Assembly (NCBI GenBank): GCA_947463095.1
Contig: CANHRE010000025.1
Span: 1 to 35,176 of the forward strand
Reading direction: 5' to 3'
Origin: Flavobacteriales bacterium
Lineage (GTDB): Bacteria; Bacteroidota; Bacteroidia; NS11-12g; UBA955
Length of the DNA: 35,176 nucleotides
The position numbers and the translations under genes were made by a program. Shown one piece after another: positions 16,831-29,385 of the stretch. How positions within the stretch are numbered: position 1 is the first letter of the stretch; every line of letters starts with the position of its first letter. The notes below the pieces were generated by a model, which saw only the letters and a program-made list of their open reading frames with translations, did not search any database and had not been told where the DNA came from.

Positions 16831-16903
16831 GATTTCGTAGCTCAGTTGGTAGAGCAATACACTTTTAATGTATGGGTCCTGGGTTCGAGTCCCAGCGAAA
16901 TCA
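16831..16903 (+). tRNA. tRNA-Lys (anticodon TTT)
   Basis: 73 nt cloverleaf: acceptor GATTTCG (16831-16837) pairs with CGAAATC (16896-16902), A73 discriminator; D arm GCTCAGTTGGTAGAGC; anticodon stem ATACA/TGTAT with loop CTTTTAA, anticodon TTT at 16864-16866; T arm CTGGG-TTCGAGT-CCCAG. The 3' CCA is not encoded and must be added by the CCA enzyme. Confidence 0.98.
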
Positions 16904-16905
16904 CG

Positions 16906-25329: not shown

Positions 25330-26775
25330 TTAAGCACCGAGTTTCTTCAGCAATACTTCATTGACCTTTCTGGGGTCGGCTTTGCCTTTGCTGCGTTTCA
25401 TGGTTTCACCCACAAACAAACCAAGCAGTCCAGTCTTCCCCTGGCGGTATTCTTCCACCTTCTGGGGAAGGGAAGCCAGCACCTCGTCGGCTATGGATTC
25501 TATCAGGTCGGCATCGCCGGTTTGCAGCAAATTCAGTGATTCTGCCAGCTCCAGCGGCGATTTGCCATCGTGGCTGATCATGGCAGGGAAGAGCTTTTGG
25601 GCGGCAGCACTGTTGCTCACTTGTCCTGAATCGATGAGCGCAATCAGGTCGGCAATACGCTTGCCGCTGAGCGGGAAATCGTCTATGCCCACAGCGTGTT
25701 CATTTAAATAGCCGCGGATGTGCACGGTTACCCAATTGGCGGCCGATTTGTAGTTGGCGGTATGTTTCACCACCTCCAGGAAATAGGCTGCGGTGGCTTT
25801 GTCGTCGGTGAGCACTCCTGCATCGTATTCACTAAGGCCCAATTCGGCGGTGAACCTGTTGAACAGTGTTTCGGGCAATTCGGGCATCAGCTTATGCACC
25901 GCTGCGATATACTGGTCGCTCAGGATAAGCGGCGGCAGGTCCGGTTCGGGAAAATAGCGGTAATCGTTCACCATTTCCTTGCTGCGCATAGAAAAGGTGG
26001 TGCCGTTCAGGGCATTGAAGCCACGGGTTTCTCCTGCTACGGCGCCACCTGCGTCCAGGATGCCTCGCTGCCTTTCAATTTCATGGTCAATGGCCCGTCG
26101 CACGTTTGAAATGGAGTTCATGTTCTTTACTTCCACCTTGGTGCCAAAGGTGCTGGTGCCAATAGGACGAATAGATACGTTGGCGTCGCAGCGCAGGCTG
26201 CCTTCTTCCATGTTGCCGTCGCAGATATCCAGGTAGCGCACGAGTCTGCGTATTTCGGTAACAAAGGCATAGGCCTCCTCGCCGGTGCGGATATCCGGGG
26301 CCGTAACCACTTCAATCAGCGGCGTGCCGGCTCGGTTATAGTCGATGAGGCTGTCGCGCGGGTCCTGGTCGTGCATGCTCTTACCGGTGTCTTCTTCCAT
26401 GTGGATGCGGATGAGCTGAACCGTTTTCCTGCTGCCGTCCTTTAGGCGAATGTTCACGCCCCCGCCTTCGCAAATCGGGGTGTTGAACTGTGTAATCTGA
26501 TAGCCTTTGGGCAAGTCGGCATAGAAATAGTTCTTGCGGGAATAATGATTTTCCTTGGTGATGTTACAGCCCAGGGCCAAGCCCATTTTCAGGGCATAAT
26601 CAACAGCGCTGCGGTTGTGGCGGGGCAATGTGCCGGGGTGTCCCAGACTGATGGGACTTACCTGGGTATTGGGAAGCGCCCCGTATGCGGTGCTATCTGC
26701 ACAAAATGCCTTACTTTGGGTAATTAGCTGTACATGTATTTCCAGGCCAATCACTGCCTCATATGCTACGCTCAT
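25330..26775 (-). CDS. gatB: Aspartyl/glutamyl-tRNA(Asn/Gln) amidotransferase subunit B
   Basis: 481 residues from ATG 26775 (a TTG three codons upstream is inside the -7 box, so it is not used). GatB activates and amidates Glu-tRNA(Gln) or Asp-tRNA(Asn) with GatA and GatC. Motifs: YEAVIGLEIHVQL at the N-terminus, HPGTLP, RKNYFYADLPKGYQITQ, IHMEEDTGKS, DYNRAGTPLIEVVTAPD, GSLRCDANVSI, FRYFPEPDLPP type segment (NDYRYFPEPDLPP), and the C-terminal YqeY-like tail. gatA and gatC are not in the window. Divergent from the first RNase P RNA gene. Confidence 0.98.
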   Translation of the reverse strand: MSVAYEAVIGLEIHVQLITQSKAFCADSTAYGALPNTQVSPISLGHPGTLPRHNRSAVDYALKMGLALGCNITKENHYSRKNYFYADLPKGYQITQFNTPICEGGGVNIRLKDGSRKTVQLIRIHMEEDTGKSMHDQDPRDSLIDYNRAGTPLIEVVTAPDIRTGEEAYAFVTEIRRLVRYLDICDGNMEEGSLRCDANVSIRPIGTSTFGTKVEVKNMNSISNVRRAIDHEIERQRGILDAGGAVAGETRGFNALNGTTFSMRSKEMVNDYRYFPEPDLPPLILSDQYIAAVHKLMPELPETLFNRFTAELGLSEYDAGVLTDDKATAAYFLEVVKHTANYKSAANWVTVHIRGYLNEHAVGIDDFPLSGKRIADLIALIDSGQVSNSAAAQKLFPAMISHDGKSPLELAESLNLLQTGDADLIESIADEVLASLPQKVEEYRQGKTGLLGLFVGETMKRSKGKADPRKVNEVLLKKLGA

Positions 26776-26781
26776 GAAATG

Positions 26782-26789
26782 CAAATATA
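26782..26789 (-). promoter_or_regulatory. -7 box TATATTTG for gatB
   Basis: Exact TAnnTTTG on the minus strand, ending 6 bases before ATG 26775; predicts a leader of about 3 nt. Confidence 0.55.
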
Positions 26790-26810: not shown

Positions 26811-26838
26811 TTGCTCGAGTTTACGGGTATTATCTTCG
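26811..26838 (+). promoter_or_regulatory. Promoter of upstream RNase P RNA copy
   Basis: TTG (26811-26813), 17 bases, TATCTTCG (26831-26838). The last base lies 6 bases before helix P1 (26845). Similarity between the two rnpB copies begins at this box. Confidence 0.55.
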
Positions 26839-26841
26839 AAA

Positions 26842-27242
26842 CAAGGCAGCCCGATCTGTCGCTTTGCAACCTCGGTTGCAGGGAGGAAAGTCCGGGCAAC
26901 ACAGAGTATCCCGCCCCGCGCAAGCGGGGGCACAGGTTGGCCCAAGCTGCCTGTGATGGAAAGTGCCACAGAGAATAAACCGCCGTGTTGCTTTAGGGCA
27001 GCATGGTAAGGGTGAAAACGCGAGGTAAGGGCTCACGCGCCTGTTCGGCAACGACAGGTTGGGTAAACCCCGGGAGTTGAAAGGCCAATATTACCCCTCA
27101 CTGAGGGTTACTCGCCCGAGTAGTTCCGGCGCAAGCCAGGATGATGGAGGGTAGGCCACATGTCCATGCCCTTCGGGGCGGGTCAGATGAATGACAGATG
27201 CGTCTTAGGGCGTAACATCATCCGGCTTACAGGGCTGCCTTT
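26842..27242 (+). ncRNA. rnpB: RNase P RNA paralogue, upstream copy with altered core block
   Basis: Class A RNase P RNA. Conserved region I GGGAGGAAAGTCCGGGC (about 26881-26897), CACAGAGAATAAACCGCC (26967-26984), GGTAAGGGTGAAAACG, GAGGTAAGGGCTCAC, GGGTAAACCCCGG, AGATGAATGAC, CCGGCTTA. P1 GGCAGCCC (26845-26852) pairs with GGGCTGCC (27232-27239), followed by eight T (27240-27247) as terminator. P2 (26854-26860 with 27193-27199), the 26985-26991/26998-27004 stem and the 27199-27204/27208-27214 stem all close. But the near-invariant ACAGAA before CCGGCTTA reads ACATCA (27215-27220). Likely folded and transcribed; catalytic activity is doubtful. Confidence 0.93.
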
Positions 27243-27284
27243 TTTTTGGTTTTCAGGGAGCTCAAAGTTCCCGCAGTTGCATAC

Positions 27285-27320
27285 ACAAGTCCGTCCTTCA
27301 GATCGGGCTTGTATATTTTT
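27285..27320 (+). terminator. Hairpin with T-run in the spacer between the rnpB copies
   Basis: ACAAGTCCG (27285-27293) pairs with CGGGCTTGT (27304-27312), 9 bp with one T-G pair, and TATTTTT follows within 8 bases. The 210-base spacer 27248-27457 holds no convincing gene; this hairpin could be a second terminator for copy one or the end of a small RNA. Confidence 0.4.
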
Positions 27321-27451
27321 AGACCCCATGTCTCTTTTGTTTGAACGCTTACCGGCATCGTTCTGGTACAATTGATGGTCCGGTGGTGATGCCGATGAAA
27401 TGTAATTGCGAAATGATGAATCTGGCCGCGGCTGGTACCATGCGGTGGCAG

Positions 27452-27459
27452 TATCTTTG
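27452..27459 (+). promoter_or_regulatory. -7 box TATCTTTG of downstream RNase P RNA copy
   Basis: Exact TAnnTTTG, 6 bases before helix P1 (27466). No TTG at the usual -33 distance. Confidence 0.6.
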
Positions 27460-27462
27460 AAA

Positions 27463-27868
27463 CCAGGCAGCCCTATCTGTCGCTCTGCAATCTCGGTTGC
27501 AGGGAGGAAAGTCCGGGCAACACAGAGTATCCCGCCCCGTGAAAGCGGGGGCGCAGGTTGGCCCAAGCCGCCTGTGACGGAAAGTGCCACAGAAAACAAA
27601 CCGCCGTGTTGCTTTAGGGCATTGCGGTAAGGGTGAAAACGCGAGGTAAGGGCTCACGCGCCTGTTCGGTAACGACAGGATGGGTAAACCCCGGGAGTTG
27701 AAAGGCCAAATATACCCCTCACTGAGGGTTACTCGCCCGAGTAATTCCGGCGCAAACCGGGATGATGGAGGGGAGGGTAGGCCGAACGTCCACGTCCTTC
27801 GGGGCGGGCTAGATAAATGACGGATGCGCCTTAGGGTGTAACAGAATCCGGCTTACAGGGCTGCCTTT
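27463..27868 (+). ncRNA. rnpB: RNase P RNA, downstream copy with consensus core
   Basis: Class A RNase P RNA, the ribozyme that trims tRNA 5' ends together with RnpA. Conserved region I at 27502-27518, CACAGAAAACAAACCGCC, GGTAAGGGTGAAAACG, GGGTAAACCCCGG, AGATAAATGAC and the intact ACAGAA-TCCGGCTTA (27841-27855). P1 GGCAGCCC (27466-27473) pairs with GGGCTGCC (27858-27865), then eight T (27866-27873). About 91% identical to the upstream copy, with a 5-nt insertion (GGAGG-type) near 27770. Its consensus core makes it the likely functional gene. Confidence 0.97.
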
Positions 27869-27894
27869 TTTTTAAAACTATCAGGGCTATCATT

Positions 27895-27909: not shown

Positions 27910-29385
27910 ATGATTCGCCCTGTCTTTTTGCTGCTGTTTGTGTTGCTAAACGCTGCTGTGCTTCATTCTGAAGATAGTTATCAGGACGACGACATTAGGA
28001 AGAAGTTGACCCTTTGCCGCGACGATTCCTGCAGGGCCGACGTTCATCTTGATGCCGCATCCCATTTCTACAAAGCGCAAAATCAGAATCTGGACAAAGC
28101 GCTGCAATATGCTCAGGAAGGTACGCGGATTGCAGAGGCCGCCAAATACCGCAACGGGATGGCCATGGGTTATGCGCTGATGGCGAAAATCTACAAGGCG
28201 AAAAAGGATGTACCCAATTATCTGCGATACGGACGCCGGGCATTGCAATACGGAATTACCACTGAGGCAGATCGGCAGCCCAGAAAACCGCTTTCCGAAT
28301 CAGGTTCAACGGCAGGCAAGTCAACAACAGCGCCAGACGGTCGCCGGCTGGATGACCTGGAGCAACGCAATCAGCTGACGCAGGCAGAACTGGCCAGGCA
28401 ACGGGCTGCTATGGAGGCGCAGCAACAGAATCAGGAACTGTTGAGGAAGGAACTCGAAGAGCTTAGTTCGGGAAAGTTGCAGTCGGAGCTAGCCCTGCTG
28501 GCCAAGGACAGCCTGCTGTCTCTGAAAGATACGGAGTTGTTGCTGGCAGTTCTGCAGGCACAGACCCAGGCCGCCGAACTCAGGGCACTTGCCAAGGATA
28601 ATGAACTTAAAGAGCTTACGCTGAAGCGGCAGAAGGAGGAGTCCCGGTTATACAGCATCATTTCGGTGTTGGGTTTAGGTATCTCCTGCATACTGTTGAT
28701 TATGTATTTCAATTACCGCAAGCACGCTAAAAAACTAGCCCGGGAGAAGGAACGCTCCGATCTGTTGCTGCTCAACATTCTGCCAAATGAGGTAGCTAAT
28801 GAATTAAAAAATACCGGCAAGGCTCGCGCCCGCAGATATGACAATGTGTCGGTCATGTTCACCGACTTCAGGAACTTTAGCGTCATCAGCAAGAGTATGT
28901 CGCCGGAGGATCTGGTTAAAGAAATAGACCATTGTTTCTCTGAATTTGACAACATCATCAGCCGCCACGGGCTTGAAAAGATCAAGACCATCGGCGACGC
29001 GTATATGTGCGCAGGAGGACTTCCACAAGAGTCAGAAGACCATGCACTGCGCATTGTGGAAGCGGCTCTGGATATCCAGGATTTCGTAGCTAAGCATGCG
29101 CAGGAAAGTAAAGCGCTCGGCCTTCCATCATTTGATATCCGAATAGGAGTGCATTCAGGTCCGGTGGTGGCTGGCATCGTTGGCAGCAAGAAGTTTGCCT
29201 ATGATATTTGGGGCGATACCGTGAATACCGCCTCCAGAATGGAGAGCAGTGGTGTGCCTGGAAAAGTGAATATTTCGGAGTACACTGTTCAGTTGCTGAA
29301 TGACAAATACCGCCTGGAAAGTCGGGGTAAAATACCGGTGAAAAACCTCGGTGAAATGGAGCAGTATTTTGTGATTCGACGGTAA
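27910..29385 (+). CDS. Membrane adenylate cyclase with TPR-like sensor region
   Basis: 491 residues: signal peptide or first helix (1-20), TPR-like helices (about 45-115), long coiled coil (145-245), one membrane helix (249-267), short linker, and a class III cyclase domain (about 285-490). Metal-binding D319 (FTDF) and D363 (GDAY), adenine-specifying K359 and D432 (AYDIWGD), N439 and R443 are all present, so it should make cAMP from ATP as a homodimer; a guanylate cyclase would have Glu and Cys at the specificity sites. The periplasmic half presumably senses something unknown. It starts 36 bases after the second rnpB T-run. Confidence 0.93.
   Translation: MIRPVFLLLFVLLNAAVLHSEDSYQDDDIRKKLTLCRDDSCRADVHLDAASHFYKAQNQNLDKALQYAQEGTRIAEAAKYRNGMAMGYALMAKIYKAKKDVPNYLRYGRRALQYGITTEADRQPRKPLSESGSTAGKSTTAPDGRRLDDLEQRNQLTQAELARQRAAMEAQQQNQELLRKELEELSSGKLQSELALLAKDSLLSLKDTELLLAVLQAQTQAAELRALAKDNELKELTLKRQKEESRLYSIISVLGLGISCILLIMYFNYRKHAKKLAREKERSDLLLLNILPNEVANELKNTGKARARRYDNVSVMFTDFRNFSVISKSMSPEDLVKEIDHCFSEFDNIISRHGLEKIKTIGDAYMCAGGLPQESEDHALRIVEAALDIQDFVAKHAQESKALGLPSFDIRIGVHSGPVVAGIVGSKKFAYDIWGDTVNTASRMESSGVPGKVNISEYTVQLLNDKYRLESRGKIPVKNLGEMEQYFVIRR

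Follow-up and report, generated by a model that had tools for sequence, protein, structure and literature searches.

RNase P RNA, an RNA enzyme, trims tRNAs. Some RNase P RNAs of plastids have little or no activity; they preserve the fold as a whole despite poor or absent catalysis, still carry the universally conserved nucleotides, and are not accompanied by a normal second copy in the plastid genome (PMC4264200). Animal RNase P RNA pseudogenes are dispersed extra copies in eukaryotic genomes, with a proper promoter on one copy only (PMC2996960). RNase MRP RNA, which is eukaryotic and catalytic, is named in the same paper as an ancient paralogue of RNase P RNA, from which it differs in role. 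A literature search returned nothing relevant on duplicated bacterial rnpB.

Here we describe a stretch of 35,176 nucleotides from an uncultured member of the Bacteroidota, a Flavobacteriales bacterium (contig CANHRE010000025.1 of assembly GCA_947463095.1; hereafter the window), in which two copies of rnpB lie in tandem, one with a consensus and one with an altered core. The altered, upstream copy resembles the plastid RNAs in keeping its overall fold alongside a presumed loss of activity, but differs from them in that conserved nucleotides are lost and a normal copy adjoins. As with the animal pseudogenes, a proper promoter is found on one copy only, but this is a bacterial tandem duplicate, and unlike RNase MRP RNA the upstream copy bears no sign of a new substrate. 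The pair constitutes a natural experiment on which parts of a ribozyme remain under constraint when the essential work is done by another copy, and bears on whether RNase P RNA can take on a second role in a bacterium. Expression of the upstream RNA would make it a rare bacterial parallel to the RNase P/RNase MRP split; if it is not expressed, the early steps of ribozyme gene decay are on view.

Results

Searching with the RF00010 covariance model (gathering cut-off 100) identified two class A RNase P RNAs in tandem on the plus strand of the window, at 26843-27245 (194.1 bits, above the gathering score) and 27464-27871 (206.4 bits), and these were the only matches in the source genome, a 2.62 Mb draft of 123 contigs that is 95.7% complete and has one rnpA. 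Both RNAs align from the first to the last model position (1-367 for the upstream copy). The downstream RNA is presumed to be the working gene and has a consensus core, as the first-pass annotation had stated. The pair is bordered on the left by gatB, encoding Asp/Glu-tRNA amidotransferase subunit B (25330-26784, minus strand; Pfam GatB_N and GatB_Yqey), and on the right by an adenylate/guanylate cyclase-domain gene (27910-29385, plus strand; PF00211), both of which are also the rnpB neighbours in a congener (G031). In its full-length match, intact P4 and specificity (S) domain, Bacteroidota-type promoter position and terminator, the upstream copy is like any bacterial class A RNase P RNA; it departs from the usual RF00010 member in being a second tandem copy, in deviating in J2/4, J15/16, J15/18 and P16 from positions invariant in 98 relatives, and in having a damaged -7 box.

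Congener G031 has a single rnpB, with the core block ACAGAA, between gatB and the cyclase gene. Sequence 5' of this rnpB is orthologous to that 5' of the upstream copy, and sequence 3' of it to the cyclase side of the downstream copy. Since the congener has one rnpB at the same site, the pair is a tandem duplication, and the two copies, which are 91% identical and have flanking sequence in common, share their origin. Positions 27328-27463, between the copies, align to the gatB start region plus spacer with 66% identity overall (score 65.5, against a maximum of 59.5 in 500 shuffles). This segment consists of a degraded duplicate of the gatB 5' end (27328-27401, 62% identity), which has lost the start codon and marks the duplication unit, and of the duplicated promoter spacer of the downstream copy (27402-27463, plus strand) with an intact -7 box TATCTTTG at 27452-27459. 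Judged from this alignment, the duplicated unit is the gatB 5' end, promoter, rnpB and terminator, the gatB piece having decayed afterwards. The draft state of the genome, in 123 contigs, might invite the explanation that metagenome assembly or strain mixing created the pair. However, mixing two strains would leave an intact gatB start between the copies, whereas the spacer is a degraded gatB fragment with a promoter rather than another strain's working gatB start, and the flanks on either side are syntenic with the congener. We therefore disfavour a strain chimera and regard an artefact of this kind as very improbable.

The arrangement is rare. Of 108 genomes of the order, no other contains two RF00010 matches, every other matching member being single-copy. 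In the class survey of 395 genomes, four others gave more than one match and one of these (G443) had two full-length copies; the latter are only distantly alike RNase P RNAs on separate contigs (L191 and L195), both with ACAGAA, and the second may stem from contamination (4%) or horizontal transfer. The multiple matches in the remaining three (G146, G455 and G480) are partial or split; for G146 and G480 (L193, L196, L194 and L198), contig breaks or large insertions in rnpB are possible. The exact ACATCA core pattern was absent elsewhere in these 395 genomes. In the draft of a second congener (G032) neither gatB nor rnpB was found, hence it is uninformative for the second copy, which is absent from the sole informative congener, G031, and is carried by no relative.

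The upstream copy has ACATCA in place of the J2/4 block ACAGAA (27215-27220, plus strand). Among 98 rnpB genes of the order the block reads ACAGAA in 94 and ACAAAA in 4, and its fifth base is A in all 98; ACATCA occurs in the upstream copy alone, which bears out the earlier claim of two substitutions at nearly invariant positions. Comparison with these relatives indicates that the fourth base of J2/4 is able to vary to A: the natural ACAAAA blocks are found in sole rnpB genes (L155, L156 and L158 of G010, G016 and G018, and that of one more genome of the order).

Altogether, four columns with 100% conservation among the 98 relatives are changed in the upstream copy, namely 27090 and 27091 in J15/16, 27158, and 27219 in J2/4. 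Its J15/16 (27087-27093, plus strand) reads AAUAUUA for AAAUAUA, with changes at 27089-27091, and the first bases after P15 (J15/18; 27158-27159, plus strand) have changed from GA to AC, the former being G in 98/98 relatives. L15 residues G292-U294 pair with the 3' end of the tRNA in the E. coli complex, where the helix is kinked by a sheared pair between G291 and A258 (PMC9433436). The residue corresponding to A258 is, by our own numbering from sequence, U in the upstream copy. The counterpart of the CCA-binding site G291-A295 (PMC9433436), L15 GGGUA at 27149-27153 on the plus strand, is kept in sequence but is no longer closed normally by P16: alignment with the downstream copy and the congener revealed a 5-nt deletion on the plus strand, at 27145-27146, that removes 4/6 P16 pairs. 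Local folding of the upstream copy likewise loses the P16/P17 stem, which is present in the other two RNAs, and the hairpin distal to P16 (P17 region) has acquired a C-A mismatch through a G to A change at 27138 (plus strand). Hence, the CCA-binding internal loop with its J15/16 adenosine is not preserved. On the other hand, P4 with its bulged U and the conserved 5' core block (GAGGAAAGUCCGGGC and UCCGGCUUA) are the same in both copies, and J5/15 is intact. The window also contains a tRNA-Lys gene (16831-16904) that does not encode the 3' CCA (CGA follows the discriminator base), though L15 is strictly conserved in the relatives.

The upstream promoter is altered as well. Its -7 box TATCTTCG (26831-26838, plus strand) is one base off TAnnTTTG, the sigma-A consensus of flavobacteria (PMC9723704). 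All 97 other rnpB upstream regions with a recognisable box have TAnnTTTG, making TATCTTCG the sole departure, so that the upstream copy lacks a house-type promoter. The terminator, formed by the 3' strand of P1 and a T-run (27230-27245, plus strand), is intact. A further hairpin, ACAAGUCCG/CGGGCUUGU, followed by a T-run at 27284-27320 between the RNA genes, resembles an additional intrinsic terminator behind the upstream copy. Elsewhere in the order, two rnpB genes (L134 and L138 of G026 and G027) start directly at a tRNA-like 3' end without a -7 box, and are probably co-transcribed with, and released from, the tRNA transcript.

Could the upstream copy nevertheless be a second working RNase P RNA, its changes being tolerated or shifting its specificity? 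Its 194 bits lie within the 182-255 bits of the family's sole full-length rnpB genes, P4, J5/15 and the GGGUA letters of L15 are unaltered, A also occurs naturally at position 4 of ACAGAA, and the tRNA-Lys gene of the window is without an encoded CCA. Against this, the changes affect four columns that do not vary in 98 relatives (the J2/4 A and two in J15/16 among them), P16 is mostly lost and the promoter is altered, and we consider this explanation doubtful.

When substitutions were polarised by the congener, 26 fell on the upstream branch, 8 on the downstream branch and 27 on the congener's own; the upstream branch further carries two ambiguous substitutions in P12 and the 5-nt deletion. 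Substituted pairs numbered 13 in the upstream copy, and 12/13 still pair; simulated substitutions of the same spectrum, placed at random, keep 57% (P=0.0006; leaving out the four-base P12 cluster, P=0.007). All main helices but P16 are present. The claim of the first-pass annotation that helices are kept or improved in this copy accordingly held for their preservation, except for the four pairs missing from P16 and the P17-region mismatch, but only in part for their improvement. The P12 stem at 26985-27004 indeed pairs fully in the upstream copy, while the downstream copy has one U-U mismatch. For P2, which is perfect in the upstream copy, the congener shows that the U-G wobble of the downstream copy arose there later, and the upstream state is ancestral rather than improved. 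In the 27199-27214 stem, one G-U to G-C change is offset by one of the reverse type, C-G to U-G. A general trend to helix improvement was thus rejected, the gain being in P12 alone.

Preservation of pairing was not matched by preservation of conserved columns. Columns that are at least 95% conserved received 7/26 upstream substitutions (6.8 expected), 1/27 in the congener (7.1 expected, P=0.002) and 0/8 in the downstream copy (upstream versus congener plus downstream, Fisher P=0.008); changes in the upstream copy therefore look blind to conserved columns, but not to pairing. Two of the seven hits are conservative, 26921 being a tetraloop change that stays GNRA and 26957 keeping a G-U pair, which leaves five columns, in three clusters, as core loss in the strict sense.

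Within the S domain of the upstream copy (approximately 26909-27076, plus strand), none of 11 substitutions is disruptive (3.7 expected, P=0.005), and this domain is intact; both tetraloops changed in it stay GNRA (GAAA to GCAA, GUAA to GCAA). In the catalytic domain, 6/17 changes are disruptive (7.4 expected, P=0.29), as compared to 0/12 in the congener (P=0.0003). Constraint thus seems to be gone from the catalytic domain but to persist in the specificity domain, although the division between the two was made post hoc and 0/11 against 6/17 is by itself weak evidence.

Divergence is 9% between the two RNA copies and 34-38% between the duplicated flanks, and only 13% between the flank of the upstream copy and that of the congener. 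Change on the upstream RNA branch amounts to only ~7%, against roughly a third on the duplicated flank; overall, the RNA has changed about a quarter as much as this flank. Fourfold-degenerate sites differ between the source genome and the congener by 50% in gatB and 60% in the cyclase gene, showing that the neutral clock is far advanced.

Discussion

A neutral pseudogene should have diverged as far as its flank, and 9% against 34-38% indicates that decay of the upstream copy did not start at the duplication. Both copies would have been kept alike either by selection on both for most of the time or by gene conversion, and selection on the upstream copy itself is favoured by helix-preserving changes that are private to it. 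Neutrality ever since the duplication would account for conserved columns being hit at the neutral rate, but would require repeated gene conversion to reconcile ~7% branch change with roughly a third on the flank, and fits poorly with significantly preserved helices. We therefore disfavour it as highly unlikely, in agreement with the earlier suggestion that the upstream copy is not a freely decaying pseudogene.

On balance, we lean towards the upstream copy being a duplicate that was maintained for a while and then recently inactivated, and that is now weakly or no longer expressed. Tandem duplication of the single rnpB between gatB and the cyclase gene took the promoter and part of gatB along, after which both copies would have stayed similar for a long time through selection on both or gene conversion. 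The downstream copy would have continued as the working RNase P RNA. Later, the upstream copy would have lost what cleavage of pre-tRNA needs, namely J2/4 beside P4, J15/16 and P16 (which give the CCA-binding loop its shape) and the first J15/18 base; its promoter has also lost a key letter. The surviving helices would then be the trace of a functional past. Speaking against this reading, the helices and the whole S domain are better preserved than by chance (P=0.0006 and P=0.005), which would not be expected of a copy in decay throughout its divergence, and the terminator is intact. The duplication, the unique core changes, the altered promoter, the preserved helices and the overall constraint follow directly from comparing one draft genome with its relatives; loss of cleavage, weak expression and the timing of these events are inferred.

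The annotation that drew attention to the locus had proposed a structured RNase P-derived RNA with altered or no cleavage activity. Loss of the core consensus, significant retention of helices and a total divergence far below that of the duplicated flank agree with this. As worded, however, the proposal is not supported: not every helix is kept, the better P2 is ancestral, and near-invariant columns received seven hits where 6.8 are expected. The promoter is damaged as well. The new functions put forward (a competitor for RnpA, a tRNA binder or an RNase P of shifted specificity) are possible, but helix preservation is equally expected after recent inactivation: about five inactivating events should come with a handful of silent changes and break few helices, and preserved helices therefore cannot separate the two.

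A retained non-catalytic RNA, in which a selected S domain and scaffold bind the tRNA elbow or RnpA and act as competitor, chaperone or regulator, is an improbable reading but one that deserves consideration. It would explain why the S domain has 0/11 disruptive changes (3.7 expected, P=0.005) next to a catalytic domain that looks unconstrained, why both changed tetraloops stay GNRA, and why P12 pairing is restored and helices are kept. It fits this domain pattern, but not the damage to the -7 box; moreover, the contrast of 0/11 with 6/17 is post hoc, a few recent hits in the catalytic domain could by chance give the same pattern, and the RNA is known from one genome. In its specific form, a duplicated RNase P RNA that has shed its CCA-binding and active-site elements, kept its elbow-binding domain and scaffold, and binds tRNA precursors or RnpA, we find it rather unlikely. 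The recent inactivation that we favour would leave the same helices in place.

Finally, the mutated J2/4 sequence CAUCAUCC (27216-27223) is perfectly complementary over 8 nt to GGAUGAUG (27139-27146) beside P16. As only the observed one of the 16 possible dinucleotides at 27218-27219 creates this 8-nt complement, the chance of such a match is about 1 in 16. The complementarity, which we regard as a lead only, might reflect a template-switch mutation, a new pairing or chance.
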